Assembly (NCBI GenBank): GCA_001595385.3
Contig: LVEI03000001.1
Span: forward strand, 2,013,501-2,077,500
Direction of reading: 5' to 3'
DNA from: Deltaproteobacteria bacterium GWC2_55_46
Lineage (GTDB): Bacteria; Desulfobacterota; GWC2-55-46
DNA: 64,000 bases
This document shows positions 19,880 through 63,242 of this stretch, piece after piece (the stretch's first letter is position 1; each line of letters opens with the position of its first letter). Both the position numbers and the translations under genes were made by a program. The notes under the pieces are model-generated. The model saw nothing but the letters and a program-made list of their open reading frames with translations, was not told the DNA's origin and did no database searches.

Positions 19880-20757
19880 TCCCCATGGGCACAAGACCGG
19901 CAGGGGCGCCTGGAATTATAAGGCGCGTACTTTTTCTGTCGTTGGTGCTTGTGGCGCTTGTGATCTCAAACGGGTGCATGGACCCCATGATAATAAGGGT
20001 CGCGGACAGGAAAGAGGTCAAGGCCCCGGAGCTCATAGGCGAGATAAAGGGCGCGGATATCATCTTTATAGGTGAGCTGCACGACAACAGGCTCCACCAC
20101 AGGGCGCAGCTTGAGCTCATAAAGGCACTGAGGGAGGACGGGACGGATATAGCCATAGGGGTCGAGATGTTCAGGACCGAGAACCAGGATGTCCTCGACC
20201 GGTGGGTCAGAGGCGAGATGAGCGAGGATGAGTTCAGGCCCGTTTATGAAAAGGAATGGGGCATACCATGGGAGCAGTACAAGGATATCTTTGTGTACGC
20301 CAGGGGAAACAGGGTCCCCATGGTCGCCCTTAACATCTCGCGCAAGCTCATGTTCCAGGTCCTTACCAAGGGCTTCAGTTCATTGTCAACGGAGCAGCTT
20401 GCCGGCCTTCCTCCGGGGATAGAGTGCAAAGTGGATGAGACATACGAGAAGTTCATGAAGGACGCGCTCGAAGAGCACGACATGGAGGGCGTGACCTTCA
20501 AGAGCTTCTGCGAGGCCCAGATGGTCTGGGACAACGTGATGGCACATAACGCGATAGAGTACCTGAAGGCAAGGCCAGGGAAGAAGATGGCGGTGCTCGC
20601 CGGGGGCGGACACTCGTGGAAGCGGGGCATCCCCGCGCAGGTCAGCAGGCTTTCAGGCTACACCAGCGTGGTGCTCCTGCCTGAGCCCGAAAGCCTTGAC
20701 CTCGATGAAGTAGGCCCTGATGACGCGGACTACATCATAGCCGGGCGGCTGTTCTGA
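19876..20757 (+). CDS. ChaN-family lipoprotein (Tiki/haem-binding superfamily)
   Basis: A 293-residue envelope protein. A hydrophobic N-terminal segment ends in ISNGC (C at about residue 34), a plausible though non-ideal lipobox. The domain follows with FIGELHDNRLHHRAQLELI, an EMFRTENQDVLDRWVRGE segment and the C-terminal LAGGGHSWKRGIP, hallmarks of the ChaN/DUF399 family; Campylobacter ChaN binds stacked haems. Candidate metal ligands are the EXXH-like GELHDN residues and the final histidine. It starts at GTG 19876 overlapping gltA, or ATG 19885. The 3' end overlaps the convergent HD-GYP gene by 28 bases. Confidence 0.82.
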   Translation: MIPMGTRPAGAPGIIRRVLFLSLVLVALVISNGCMDPMIIRVADRKEVKAPELIGEIKGADIIFIGELHDNRLHHRAQLELIKALREDGTDIAIGVEMFRTENQDVLDRWVRGEMSEDEFRPVYEKEWGIPWEQYKDIFVYARGNRVPMVALNISRKLMFQVLTKGFSSLSTEQLAGLPPGIECKVDETYEKFMKDALEEHDMEGVTFKSFCEAQMVWDNVMAHNAIEYLKARPGKKMAVLAGGGHSWKRGIPAQVSRLSGYTSVVLLPEPESLDLDEVGPDDADYIIAGRLF

Positions 20758-21857
20758 GGCTCCGTTTCCTCGTGGTTCTCGTCGTAAAGCCTCCTGAACT
20801 CTTTTGAGCAATCGCTGAAGGCGGCGAGTATGACCGGGTCATAGTTGTCCGGGTTCTCGAATATTATCCTGCAGGCGGTGTCGTGGTCGAAGCTCTCTTT
20901 GTAAGGGCGTGAGCTCCTCAGCGCGTCGTATATATCCACCATGTTCACGATCCTGCCGGACATCGGTATCTCCGTGCCCTTAAGCCCCCTGGGGTAGCCC
21001 TTCCCGTTCCATCTTTCATGGTGAGTAAGCGCGATGTCCCTCGCCGCGGCGAGTATGCCGGAGTCAGCGTCCTTCAGTATCTCGGCGCCGATCGTCGTAT
21101 GGGTCTTCATTATTTCGAATTCTTCAGGGGTAAGCGGCCCGGGCTTCAAGAGGATCGAATCGGGTATGCCTATCTTGCCGACGTCGTGCATGGGGCTGGC
21201 GAAGAATATTGTCTCTACCTCCTCCTCCGGAAGACGCAGGTACCTGGCCATCATCTGGGAGTAAAGGCTTATTCTCTTTATATGGCTACCGGTCTCCTTG
21301 TCCCTCTGCTCGGCGGCGAGGGTGAGCCGGAAGACCGTCTCTATGTAGCCCTTGCGTATCTTGTCGAAGGCCCGCTCAAGCTGTACGCTCTTGTCCTCGA
21401 CCTCGTTTTCAAGCCTCCTGCCATGCTCCACCAGAAAGTCCTCGTAGCGCTTGACCTTCAAGAGGTTCCTGAGCCTTACCCTGAACTCGGTCTCGTCTAC
21501 AGGCTTTGAGAGTAGCTCGTCCGCTCCGCTTTGAAGCCCCCTTATCTTCGAGTTCCTGTCGGAAAGAGAGGTTACGATCACGACCGGGATGTACATCGTG
21601 GCGGGGTCTTCCTTGAGCCTCTTCGTGACCTCAAAACCGTCCATGCCGGGCATTACCACGTCGATTAAGAGGACGTCCGGGCGGTGGGTCCGCGCCTTCT
21701 CAAGGGCCTCGAGCCCGTTGACGGCGGATATGCTCTCGTATCCAAGCTCGGAGATGAGGTCAGAGAAGATGCGGAGGTAGAAGGTGTCGTCGTCCGCTAT
21801 GAGGATCCTGGCCTTTTTCGACTGCCCCTTGGCAATGGTCTGCAGGGTCTCGCTCAT
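20730..21857 (-). CDS. Response regulator with HD-GYP cyclic-di-GMP phosphodiesterase domain
   Basis: A 375-residue cytoplasmic protein. An N-terminal receiver (about 16-135) has phospho-acceptor LLIDVVMPGMDGF and the lysine in LSKPVDE. A coiled linker (about 140-175) leads to an HD-GYP domain with HDVGKIGIPD, HTTIGAEIL, HHERWNGKGYPRGLKG and DIYDALRSSRPYK, all catalytic and signature residues intact. It should hydrolyse c-di-GMP under control of an unlinked sensor kinase. It is a single gene and a possible counterpart to the REC-GGDEF gene at 62.2 kb. Confidence 0.92.
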   Translation of the reverse strand: MSETLQTIAKGQSKKARILIADDDTFYLRIFSDLISELGYESISAVNGLEALEKARTHRPDVLLIDVVMPGMDGFEVTKRLKEDPATMYIPVVIVTSLSDRNSKIRGLQSGADELLSKPVDETEFRVRLRNLLKVKRYEDFLVEHGRRLENEVEDKSVQLERAFDKIRKGYIETVFRLTLAAEQRDKETGSHIKRISLYSQMMARYLRLPEEEVETIFFASPMHDVGKIGIPDSILLKPGPLTPEEFEIMKTHTTIGAEILKDADSGILAAARDIALTHHERWNGKGYPRGLKGTEIPMSGRIVNMVDIYDALRSSRPYKESFDHDTACRIIFENPDNYDPVILAAFSDCSKEFRRLYDENHEETEPQNSRPAMM

Positions 21858-21930
21858 ACGGGGTATAGTACATCTTTGCGATCAGCTTGGCAAGAGACGA
21901 AATTTGTTCGGCGCATAAGGCAACAAAGTC

Positions 21931-44954: not shown

Positions 44955-44999
44955 CAAGGAAGTACTCTGCCATGGGTAGATGACTTCCTTGATTTTTTT
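44955..44999 (+). terminator. Intrinsic terminator closing the cobalamin cluster
   Basis: CAAGGAAGT (44955-44963) and ACTTCCTTG (44983-44991) pair perfectly around a 19-base loop and are followed by a run of seven T (44993-44999). Confidence 0.85.
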
Positions 45000-45010
45000 G
45001 GGGTATATGA

Positions 45011-45030
45011 TATATGCTTTGCTATAGCAA
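45011..45030 (+). promoter_or_regulatory. Palindromic operator and -10 region before the XRE-PilZ gene
   Basis: The perfect 12-base palindrome TTGCTATAGCAA (45019-45030) lies between a TATATG -10-like element (45011-45016) and the GTG codon at 45031. TTGATT (44989-44994) is a possible -35 at 16 bases. XRE-family proteins often repress their own gene from such a site. Confidence 0.55.
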
Positions 45031-45570
45031 GTGAGTGGTTTGATCATGGCAGATAGAGTGGGCGGGGGGATTATGGGGCCTGGTGATATAAAGCGTCTTA
45101 GGGATTTTCTGGGCTGGTCACAGGAGAAGCTGGCCAGGGAGCTTGGGGTAAGTTTCTCGACCGTGAACCGGTGGGAGCGTGGCAGGTCCCGGCCAAGCCC
45201 GTTGGCGGAGATCTCCTTATGGAAGCTCGAGGCAGGGTGCTCATATGGCAAGAGGGCGCACCAGCGGTTCAGTTCCGCCCTTCCTCTTGAGTTAAGGAGC
45301 ACCGGAGGGACCGGTTCCTTCAGGTCCGTAACGGAGAACATAAGCTGCGGCGGTCTCATGTTCAGCACTGAAAAAAGACTGGGCAGCGGCTTATCTATCA
45401 CGGTGGGGATAAAACCCGCCGTATCATCCGCACTGCTTATAGACGCGGAGGTGGCCTGGGTCGGCGAGGCAGGAGGGACCAGGAAGGTAGGGGTGCGTTT
45501 CTCGCCTGGCATGGAAACTGAGATCGCGGATCTGATAAGCGGTTTATCTTCGGGCAATGGAGCCCATTAA
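45031..45570 (+). CDS. XRE-family helix-turn-helix fused to a PilZ c-di-GMP-binding domain
   Basis: A 179-residue protein from GTG 45031; ATG 45046 or 45073 are alternatives. Residues about 18-70 are an XRE/Cro-type helix-turn-helix, with LRDFLGWSQEKLARELGVSF and TVNRWERGRSRPS. Residues about 74-172 are a PilZ domain with both c-di-GMP-contacting motifs: R75-x3-R79 (RAHQR) and N103-x-S105-x2-G108 (NISCGG). This predicts a DNA-binding protein whose activity responds to c-di-GMP. It is followed 18 bases later by a PAS histidine kinase, likely co-transcribed. A perfect palindrome sits at its promoter. Confidence 0.85.
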   Translation: MSGLIMADRVGGGIMGPGDIKRLRDFLGWSQEKLARELGVSFSTVNRWERGRSRPSPLAEISLWKLEAGCSYGKRAHQRFSSALPLELRSTGGTGSFRSVTENISCGGLMFSTEKRLGSGLSITVGIKPAVSSALLIDAEVAWVGEAGGTRKVGVRFSPGMETEIADLISGLSSGNGAH

Positions 45571-45588
45571 GGAACGGTAAAGACAGCT

Positions 45589-46974
45589 ATGTCAAAGGAA
45601 GGAAGTCTCAGCCTGGACAGGCAGGGACGTATTATAAGGTTCAGCCAGAGGCTGGAGGATATGCTCGGCTACGATGCCGAAGATGTGCTGGGCAGGGAGT
45701 TCACCTCTCTGGCCCCCTCCGGCATGGAAGATGTTTTTCTCTCGATACTTGACGGCGCCGAAGGGCAATCTGGCACACCCCCCAAAAAGGCCGCGTTCCT
45801 CTGTAAGGGCGGGACGGTTGCGGAGTTCTATCTGTTGACCCATCCCCTGAGGGACCGTTCAGGGGAGATATATTCGTATCTGCTGGCACTGTCAGTCAGG
45901 AAGACCGCCATGCCGGCGTTTCTAAGCGACGAGTTCAGGCGGATGTTCAAGTTTTCTAACGACGCGGTCTCTGTCACGGACAGGGACGGCTCCATAATAG
46001 ACGTAAACCAGGCATTTCAGGAGACCTACGGCTACGAGCGCCATGAGGTCCTCGGACGAAACCCCAGGGTTTTGAAATCATCCCATTCCACAAAGGCTCT
46101 ATATGAGAAGATGTGGAAGGACATTCTCGACCCGGCTGTAGGATATTGGAGGGGAGAGATCATAAACCTCGCCAAGGACGGGCGAGAGGTACCTGTCCTT
46201 CTTTCGATAAATGCCATAAAGGACGCCAGAGGCGATATAAAGTGCTTTCTCGGCATAGCCTTCAACATGACCAGGCAGAAGGAGCTCGACAAGCTCCGGA
46301 AGATGTACATAGACCACATCATACATGACATACGGGGCCCGTTGACCTCTATCACGGTGAACGCGGAACTGCTTCTTATGCTGCCGGCTCTTTCTGACAC
46401 GGTGAAAAGAAAGCTCAAGGTCATCTCCTCCTCGGCCCTGAAGATAGGCTCCATGACCTCTGATATACTCGACTACAGCAGGGCTGAAAACGCAAGCGTG
46501 ATGTTGAGGAAGGAGAGGGTCAGTGTCGCCGAGGCCATCTGCGAAGCCGCGATGCCGTTCGAGGGGGCCGGCAAGCTGCTCCTGTTTATGGGCGAGCCTT
46601 CAGTCGGCCCGGCTTTCGAGGGCATGGAGGTCTTCGCCGATTCAGACAAGCTCAAAAGGGTCATATATAACCTCCTGAGCAACGCCTTCAAGCACGCCGC
46701 CACAAAGGTCGAGGTCGCCGCGGAGGTCGTGCCTGCGGGCTTGAGTCTTTCCGTCTCCAATGACGGCAAGGGCATATCAAGCGAGCAGGCCGAGAGGATA
46801 TTCGAGGCCTTCTACCAGACCGAAGATGGTGTCAAGACGGGCGGGGCGGGCCTGGGCTTGAGCATAGTGAAGAGCTTTGTCGAGGCGCACGGCGGCAGGG
46901 TTTGGGTAAGGGCCGGCGAGGAGAACGGGGTGACCTTCGGCTTCCTGATACCGTCAGAGCCAGCCGCGTTGTAG
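45589..46974 (+). CDS. Cytoplasmic PAS-PAS sensor histidine kinase
   Basis: A 461-residue soluble kinase. PAS 1 covers about 5-110 (SLDRQGRIIRFSQRLEDMLGY) and PAS 2 about 120-235 (VTDRDGSIIDVNQAFQETYGY, GRNPRVLKS). HisKA has the phospho-acceptor in HIIHDIRGPLTSI near 245. The ATPase domain shows VIYNLLSNAFKHA (N box), VSNDGKGIS (G1) and GGAGLGLSIVKSFVEAHGG (G2). No membrane helices, so it senses a cytoplasmic cue, possibly redox or ligand through PAS. No response regulator is adjacent; the upstream XRE-PilZ protein is the only apparent partner. Confidence 0.9.
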   Translation: MSKEGSLSLDRQGRIIRFSQRLEDMLGYDAEDVLGREFTSLAPSGMEDVFLSILDGAEGQSGTPPKKAAFLCKGGTVAEFYLLTHPLRDRSGEIYSYLLALSVRKTAMPAFLSDEFRRMFKFSNDAVSVTDRDGSIIDVNQAFQETYGYERHEVLGRNPRVLKSSHSTKALYEKMWKDILDPAVGYWRGEIINLAKDGREVPVLLSINAIKDARGDIKCFLGIAFNMTRQKELDKLRKMYIDHIIHDIRGPLTSITVNAELLLMLPALSDTVKRKLKVISSSALKIGSMTSDILDYSRAENASVMLRKERVSVAEAICEAAMPFEGAGKLLLFMGEPSVGPAFEGMEVFADSDKLKRVIYNLLSNAFKHAATKVEVAAEVVPAGLSLSVSNDGKGISSEQAERIFEAFYQTEDGVKTGGAGLGLSIVKSFVEAHGGRVWVRAGEENGVTFGFLIPSEPAAL

Positions 46975-47107: not shown

Positions 47108-47123
47108 CTAAAAATATGGATCA

Positions 47124-47228
47124 TGGTCTCCGAGCCATCTCTCCTAAGGCCCCTCAAGGGCTAAGGGGACTGGCCGATAGGGCCTGGCTGGAAACGGCCC
47201 GGCCTCCCGATGGAAAGGAGATTGAACC
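47124..47228 (+). ncRNA. Candidate molybdenum cofactor (Moco) riboswitch
   Basis: A leader RNA ahead of modA with features I associate with the Moco RNA motif: TCTCCGAGCC at the 5' side (47127-47136), a GGCCC/GGGCT hairpin, the GGCCGATAGGGCC arm, TGGAAACGGCC, and at the 3' side GGCCTCCCGATGGAAAGGAG (47201-47220). TCTCC can pair with the 3' GGAGA to close P1, and GAG-CC with GG-CCTC to form the next helix. The expression platform is the terminator directly downstream. The gene context (molybdate transport) fits. Confidence 0.8.
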
Positions 47229-47262
47229 AACCAACACCTTTCCATGGCGTTGGTTTTTTTTT
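47229..47262 (+). terminator. Terminator of the Moco riboswitch expression platform
   Basis: AACCAACACC (47229-47238) pairs with GGCGTTGGTT (47246-47255) with one mismatch, followed by a run of T to 47262, ten bases before the modA ATG. Confidence 0.85.
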
Positions 47263-62227: not shown

Positions 62228-63184
62228 TCAGGCTTCGACGGGTCCGGAGTCCTCGAAAACGGTCACCCGGTCCCTGCCCGCTGTCTTGGATGCGTACAGG
62301 GCCTTGTCCGCGGCCCGCGTAAGCTCGTCTATCGTGATTATCCTGTCCTGGGGGTACAGTGCCAGCCCGGCGCTTACGGTTATACTTATCCCGGGGGCTA
62401 CCGAGGAGAAGTCGTATTCCTTCACAAGCTTCCTGAACCTCTCAGCCGCCAGGAGAGCGCTTTGCGAGTCGGTGTTAAAAAGGCATATTATGAACTCTTC
62501 CCCGCCGAACCGGGCAAGGAGCTCTCCCCCTCTTTTGCAGGAGTTGAAGAGGGCGCCGATCTCTTTCAATATCTCGTCCCCGGCGGCATGGCCGCAGGTG
62601 TCGTTTACCTTCTTGAAGTGGTCTATGTCGAGCAGGAGGCAGGCTATCTTGAACCCGTGGCGGAGCCCCAGCGCCATCTGCGTCTTGACCGACTCGAAGA
62701 AGTGGCGCCTGTTGTTGAGGCCCGTAAGCTCGTCCGTTACGGCGAGCTTTTCAAGGAGCGCGTTCTTCTCCTTCAACTCCTCCATGAGCCCCTTCATCCT
62801 GAGGAGCGACTTTACCCTTGCTACCAGCTCCTCGTTATCAAAGGGCTTTATGAGGAAGTCGCTCGCCCCGAGATTGAAGCCCGCGAGTTTTTTCTTGAGG
62901 GAGTCCTTCGTCCCTGAGATGAGGATTATGGGGATATCCCTGCCGTCTTCCATGGCGCGGATGGTAGAGATGAACCTGTAGCCGTTTATGCTCGGCATCT
63001 CTATATCCGTGATTATGAAACCGGGTTTATCCTCGACGAAGGACTTTATGGCGGCAAGGCCGTCTTCCGCCTCTATGAAAGATGAGAAGATATCCTTGAG
63101 GGCAGCACGTATGGCTGCCCTGGCCTGGCTTGAATCATCGACCAGCAGGACTTTTTCGTGAGCATGGTTGCTCGTCAGCATCAT
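62228..63184 (-). CDS. Response regulator with GGDEF diguanylate cyclase domain (PleD-like)
   Basis: A 318-residue protein. The receiver (about 10-128) has the acidic pair VDDS, phospho-acceptor ITDIEMPSINGY, and IKPFDNEE with the conserved lysine. The GGDEF domain (about 150-310) has LTGLNNRRHFFE, DIDHFKKVNDTCGHAAGDEIL and active-site GGEEF within LARFGGEEFIICL. The allosteric I-site position reads RGGE instead of RxxD, so product inhibition may be weakened. It should make c-di-GMP under phospho-control, opposed by the HD-GYP protein at 20.7 kb. Confidence 0.93.
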   Translation of the reverse strand: MMLTSNHAHEKVLLVDDSSQARAAIRAALKDIFSSFIEAEDGLAAIKSFVEDKPGFIITDIEMPSINGYRFISTIRAMEDGRDIPIILISGTKDSLKKKLAGFNLGASDFLIKPFDNEELVARVKSLLRMKGLMEELKEKNALLEKLAVTDELTGLNNRRHFFESVKTQMALGLRHGFKIACLLLDIDHFKKVNDTCGHAAGDEILKEIGALFNSCKRGGELLARFGGEEFIICLFNTDSQSALLAAERFRKLVKEYDFSSVAPGISITVSAGLALYPQDRIITIDELTRAADKALYASKTAGRDRVTVFEDSGPVEA

Positions 63185-63242
63185 CTTTTATCGACAGAGC
63201 GTAGTAAGAACTTGAAGAAAAAAGAGCGGTGGGGGGTGCGTC

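Follow-up and report, generated by a model that had tools for sequence, protein, structure and literature searches.

The DNA-binding domain of BldD, a regulator from Streptomyces, is XRE-like and, to our knowledge, BldD carries no PilZ domain. BldD controls developmental genes in response to bis-(3′-5′)-cyclic dimeric guanosine monophosphate (c-di-GMP), and the ligand causes its dimerisation (PMC4151990). MrkH joins a PilZ domain to a novel DNA-binding domain while most other c-di-GMP regulators use a helix-turn-helix (HTH), as documented in a 2025 review (PMC12564702). Here we describe a protein, HTH-PilZ, in which an XRE-type HTH (HTH_3) and a PilZ domain form a single chain. It is encoded at positions 45073–45570 of a 64,000-nucleotide stretch of Deltaproteobacteria bacterium GWC2_55_46 (contig LVEI03000001.1, positions 2,013,501 to 2,077,500 of the forward strand), the whole of which is referred to as the window. 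HTH-PilZ is probably, with a rough probability of 0.62, a c-di-GMP-responsive autorepressor of the operon it would form with the histidine kinase gene behind it (hth-pilZ-hk).

Comparison with the described systems places HTH-PilZ apart from each of them. MrkH of Klebsiella pneumoniae has no canonical HTH and activates fimbrial genes, whereas the N-terminal domain of HTH-PilZ is HTH_3 and not the MrkH N-terminal domain, which argues against membership in the MrkH family. CuxR of Sinorhizobium meliloti combines an AraC-type HTH with a cupin and has neither a PilZ barrel nor an XRE domain. The BldD dimer is bridged by a c-di-GMP tetramer. YcgR, Alg44, BcsA and PlzD (VCA0042) have the barrel and both c-di-GMP motifs in common with HTH-PilZ but act by protein contact or enzyme control rather than via a DNA-binding domain. 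Conversely, the antitoxins HigA2 and MqsA share the XRE-type HTH fold, with a root-mean-square deviation (rmsd) of 1.0–1.4 Å over 57 residues, and HigA2 dimers occupy operator half-sites (PMC11006873), but both are toxin-linked and lack PilZ; their base-contacting positions differ from the equivalents in HTH-PilZ, S/C29, N32, R33 and R/K38 in a gapless structural alignment. By every sequence and fold feature that could be tested, HTH-PilZ belongs at once to the PilZ and to the XRE proteins, and it is not of the MrkH type. It would work like other c-di-GMP transcription factors.

Domain composition and predicted fold of HTH-PilZ

The protein and its parts are as follows.

45073–45570, + strand: HTH-PilZ protein, 165 residues (Pfam, start by conservation, AlphaFold pLDDT 85.8; the GTG at 45031 is probably too early)
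45079–45237, + strand: XRE/HTH_3 DNA-binding domain, residues 3–55 (Pfam, model, structure matches, alignment)
45250–45552, + strand: PilZ six-strand barrel and C-terminal helix, residues 60–160 (Pfam, model, structure matches)
45253–45267, + strand: RxxxR c-di-GMP motif (R61, R65), hinge between HTH and barrel (19/19 homologues)
45337–45354, + strand: (N/D)xSxxG c-di-GMP motif (N89, S91, G94; alignment of 19 homologues)

Both domains were recognised by Pfam well above the curated cut-offs, HTH_3 (PF01381) with E 4.3e-12 and 46.3 bits against a cut-off of 23, and PilZ (PF07238) with E 3.1e-11 and 43.9 bits against 22.5. The gene is one of 12 PilZ genes at or above the Pfam cut-off in this genome. 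The initial annotation, made from the letters of the DNA, had placed both domains with intact c-di-GMP motifs on one chain, and this was borne out by Pfam, the fold model and the alignment. Its length of 179 residues, counted from a GTG at 45031 that would adjoin the promoter palindrome directly, has to be revised. The starts of the 19 homologues align to ATG 45073 and the leader 45031–45072 shows no protein-level conservation across the genus; therefore, the protein is most likely 165 residues long, and the motif residues earlier numbered R75/R79 and N103/S105/G108 become R61/R65 and N89/S91/G94.

The alignment of homologues, which are 31–61% identical to the window protein with a mean column identity of about 42%, shows R61, R65, N/D89 and G94 in 19 of 19 sequences and S91 in 17 of 19. 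On the DNA-binding side, F28 and T30–E35 of the recognition helix are invariant across the 19 homologues. AlphaFold2, given the window protein and 18 relatives, produced a model with a mean predicted local distance difference test (pLDDT) score of 85.8 and a predicted template modelling (pTM) score of 0.62, in which four HTH helices (3–55) are followed by six strands (71–143) and a C-terminal helix. Structure comparison against the PDB by Foldseek and VIA-align matched residues 60–165 with PilZ domains whose structures include c-di-GMP (YcgR 5y6g, Z 13.5; Alg44 4rt1, Z 13.5; MrkH 5kgo, Z 12.9), so that the C-terminal region is predicted to be a six-strand PilZ barrel (Z 13–14), as the initial annotation had supposed. 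Residues 1–57 matched XRE domains, among them those of autorepressor type in HigA2, with Z 11.4 and rmsd 1.0 over 57 residues, and in MqsA, with Z 10.1, and also Aca2 and P22 c2. No structure among the listed matches covers both domains in the HTH-PilZ arrangement. The RxxxR motif, described in the review as located in the flexible linker ahead of the PilZ barrel (PMC12564702), sits here in the stretch that leads from the last HTH helix into the barrel, R61 and R65 being about six residues past that helix. In the model, ligand binding at RxxxR could thus shift the HTH.

It is improbable that the PilZ domain has degenerated into a dimerisation module which binds no c-di-GMP. A lack of ligand binding is indeed known for some PilZ domains, such as PilZ of P. 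aeruginosa (PMC12564702), and in two homologues the S of NxSxxG is replaced by G; against this, RxxxR and (N/D)xSxxG are otherwise invariant over the whole identity range of the homologues, as in c-di-GMP-binding structures.

A promoter palindrome that accompanies the hth-pilZ gene

Upstream of the gene, two features were assigned.

44989–45018, + strand: predicted sigma-70-type promoter, −35 TTGATT (44989–44994), 18-nucleotide spacer, −10 TATGCT (45013–45018) (genus conservation, prediction only)
45019–45030, no strand: palindrome TTGCTATAGCAA, predicted HTH-PilZ operator over the predicted transcription start (conserved at hth-pilZ genes, none at loci without the gene)

The sequence TTGCTATAGCAA is a perfect 12-mer palindrome. 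Within the genus, five genomes share GCTATAGC and, upstream of it, TTGATTTTTTT without any change and maintain the −10 position as TATGCT, TATTCT or TAAGCT; the operator centre falls 0 to +7 relative to the predicted start (for L038, taken from the alignment). In other families, the site is found between the −35 and −10 elements, on them or near the start; in L046 and L049, whose promoters match at 11 of 12 positions, it falls in the spacer. The palindrome thus appears to sit where a repressor would sit. Of 20 hth-pilZ genes, 9 have the degenerate form TGYTATARCA upstream, where 1000 dinucleotide shuffles gave 0.03 on average and never more than 1; four further hth-pilZ promoters carry variants that differ at one or two positions (CGCTATAGCA/G, TGCTATAGCT). 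TGYTATARCA was absent from all 13 loci that have no HTH-PilZ at this position, of which 11 are deoB-HK-mod or HK-mod (HK, histidine kinase) and two deoB-mod only. Since G011 and G012, two genomes with HTH-PilZ and no kinase, keep it at the hth-pilZ promoter, intact or with one mismatch, the site, as read from these promoters, follows HTH-PilZ and not the kinase. The exact 10-mer TGCTATAGCA occurs once per genome in G000, G003, G007 and G008, each time at the hth-pilZ promoter. Second half-sites or tandem palindromes, as if dimers cooperate, were seen about 10–13 bp from the main site in L042, L044, L045, L046 and L054.

Inferential support for the earlier proposal of a c-di-GMP-responsive transcription factor, with predicted binding of ligand and of DNA, is good: the folds are confirmed in prediction, the ligand contacts are conserved in 19 homologues and the own-promoter palindrome tracks the gene. 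The accompanying guess that the 45019–45030 palindrome is the DNA site also appears to have been a good one. HTH-PilZ would then be a one-component regulator in which two XRE-type HTH domains of a dimer bind TGCTATAGCA overlapping the start region of their own promoter, and this binding would repress the hth-pilZ-hk transcription unit. The PilZ domain would bind c-di-GMP via R61/R65 and N89/S91/G94, and the bound ligand would reorient or lock the HTH pair and so alter its affinity for DNA. The output would be the amount of kinase and of HTH-PilZ made. We lean towards the ligand relieving rather than strengthening repression.

Several points weigh against autorepression through this site. Seven of the 20 hth-pilZ genes (five in G034/G040, plus L051 and L053) have no recognisable site, and these seven keep nearly the same recognition helix; for instance, the four readable G034 promoters lack the palindrome while the helix is nearly unchanged. 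The Y/R degeneracy of TGYTATARCA was picked after the relatives had been seen, and the promoter prediction was position-limited, which partly builds in the overlap of operator and promoter outside the genus. Loss of the gene could delete the promoter site without any functional link between them. Standalone XRE proteins of other phyla share part of the HTH conservation.

An unlikely alternative is that the main targets of a c-di-GMP-responsive HTH-PilZ lie elsewhere, that self-regulation is secondary and that the protein may activate rather than repress. Support comes from the kinase-less genome G012, whose sole exact TGCTATAGCA lies within an 18-bp palindrome, CATATGCTATAGCATATG (L246 2500–2786, G012:C94), just downstream of a near-consensus TTGACA-17-TATAGT promoter and ahead of a PocR-GAF-GGDEF gene. 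This single case among the 20 sites read suggests a possible feedback on c-di-GMP synthesis. G038 has a site ahead of a PAS kinase gene, and G034 carries five HTH-PilZ copies in varied settings. Nevertheless, the 20 extra sites in other genomes show no recurring target except the own promoter. A wide regulon in the window's 2.79-Mb genome is likewise not indicated, TGYTATARCA occurring there three times, with the other two sites poorly placed, one adjoining the proB stop and one inside a kinase gene.

The adjacent kinase and the mod genes

Two further features of the locus are relevant here.

45589–46974, + strand: soluble PAS-PAS histidine kinase, probably co-transcribed (18-nucleotide gap) (Pfam; adjacency in 13 genomes)
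47116–47234, + strand: molybdenum cofactor (Moco; molybdenum/tungsten) riboswitch between the operon and modABC (Rfam RF01055, 71.6 bits)

The kinase has the domain order PAS-PAS-HisKA-HATPase_c by Pfam, with intact H, N, G1 and G2 boxes and no transmembrane stretch. No response regulator stands beside it, the flanks being deoB upstream and modABC downstream; the cytoplasmic kinase 18 bases on, without a neighbouring regulator, was thus described correctly at the outset, as were the REC-GGDEF (62231–63187, − strand) and REC-HD-GYP (20733–21881, − strand) proteins of the window. GGDEF proteins were present in 11 of 11 genomes checked. The common locus order in most relatives is cobalamin genes, deoB, hth-pilZ, hk and modABC.

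Both hth-pilZ and hk occur in 13 genomes, where they are always adjacent, on the same strand and with hth-pilZ first. The kinase occurs alone in 13 genomes, with deoB directly upstream of it in 10 of 10 whose locus sequence covers that position, and HTH-PilZ without the kinase in four. The pairing is real but not obligate; an obligate pair is ruled out by these counts. Together with the absence of a REC domain from HTH-PilZ by Pfam, they also speak against a two-component system with the adjacent kinase. One natural loss was observed in G004 (L191), a genome of the window's genus rated 100% complete, in which hth-pilZ is missing and the deoB-hk gap is 91 bp. The suggestion that the pair integrates a phospho- or redox cue with c-di-GMP fits the adjacency wherever both genes are present and is weakened by the genomes with only one of them. 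The constant order and strand in 13 of 13 genomes could also be taken to mean that the two proteins are a physical signalling pair, in which the PilZ part would bind or gate the kinase, or be under its control. We consider this very improbable, as 13 genomes have only the kinase, in the same place where readable, four have only HTH-PilZ, and HTH-PilZ has no REC. A transcriptional link, in which HTH-PilZ would set the amount of kinase made, is simpler.

The adjacency of the mod genes raises the question of whether the palindrome belongs to another regulator, such as a ModE-like protein of these genes, with HTH-PilZ binding elsewhere. In two genomes (L038 7573–8013, L054 11000–11470), small HTH_1 (LysR/ModE-like) proteins are encoded between the kinase gene and the mod genes, which fits such a regulator. 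Such an assignment is very improbable, as the motif lies upstream of modA in no locus examined, is gone where kinase and mod genes stay without HTH-PilZ, and modABC has its own Moco riboswitch. The riboswitch, present in 7 of 10 relative loci tested, also makes modABC probably a separate unit from hth-pilZ-hk; since it intervenes and no palindrome stands ahead of modA, control of modABC by HTH-PilZ is unlikely. At 47116–47255 of the window, an apparent hairpin and T-run can be seen by eye after the riboswitch and ahead of modABC.

Distribution of the fusion and its significance

Of the 48 genomes of the order, 17, spread across four families, encode full-length HTH-PilZ, and in a 395-genome sample of the phylum full-length matches were confined to this order. 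Samples of 398 genomes each from the Tistrella and Paenibacillus phyla contained no full-length fusion at the thresholds used; in total, some 1,170 genomes sampled from the rest of the phylum and two other phyla gave no fusion. A motif scan of 84,980 genomes, which used HTH peptide patterns that unrelated HTH-PilZ fusions could escape, gave no open reading frame with both domains outside this group; those found belonged to group members, metagenome-assembled genomes titled mostly Deltaproteobacteria, and other relatives of the HTH lacked PilZ. The plasmid search, like the genome samples outside the order and the motif scan outside the group, returned HTH-only or PilZ-only matches and no fusion. 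Independent fusions with a divergent HTH could exist. This HTH type recurs in very long frames (about 1,200 residues; e.g., L151 and L163) in other families of the phylum. Among the G034 paralogues (G034 loci: L048, L050, L052, L055), two are separated by about 1.2 kb that contain a metallo-beta-lactamase-fold gene. The initial annotation had called the fusion uncommon, and its restriction to one order agrees with this, as does the literature searched for HTH/XRE-PilZ fusions, which gave no such regulator.

It is possible, and we put it forward tentatively, that these proteins form a lineage-specific family in which an XRE HTH joined to a c-di-GMP-binding PilZ domain would act as a near-single-target feedback switch on itself and on a cytosolic histidine kinase. 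In at least one kinase-less genome, a diguanylate cyclase would also fall under this switch, closing a transcriptional c-di-GMP loop. Most c-di-GMP transcription factors known so far use folds other than PilZ to bind the ligand; in the literature searched, the DNA-binding PilZ example is MrkH, without a canonical HTH. A small single-chain HTH-PilZ with a predicted operator of 10–12 bp would be a minimal, readily testable instance of DNA binding under a PilZ switch and might serve as a c-di-GMP sensor part. It would also provide a c-di-GMP circuit open to testing in an uncultured lineage, one order of delta-proteobacteria.
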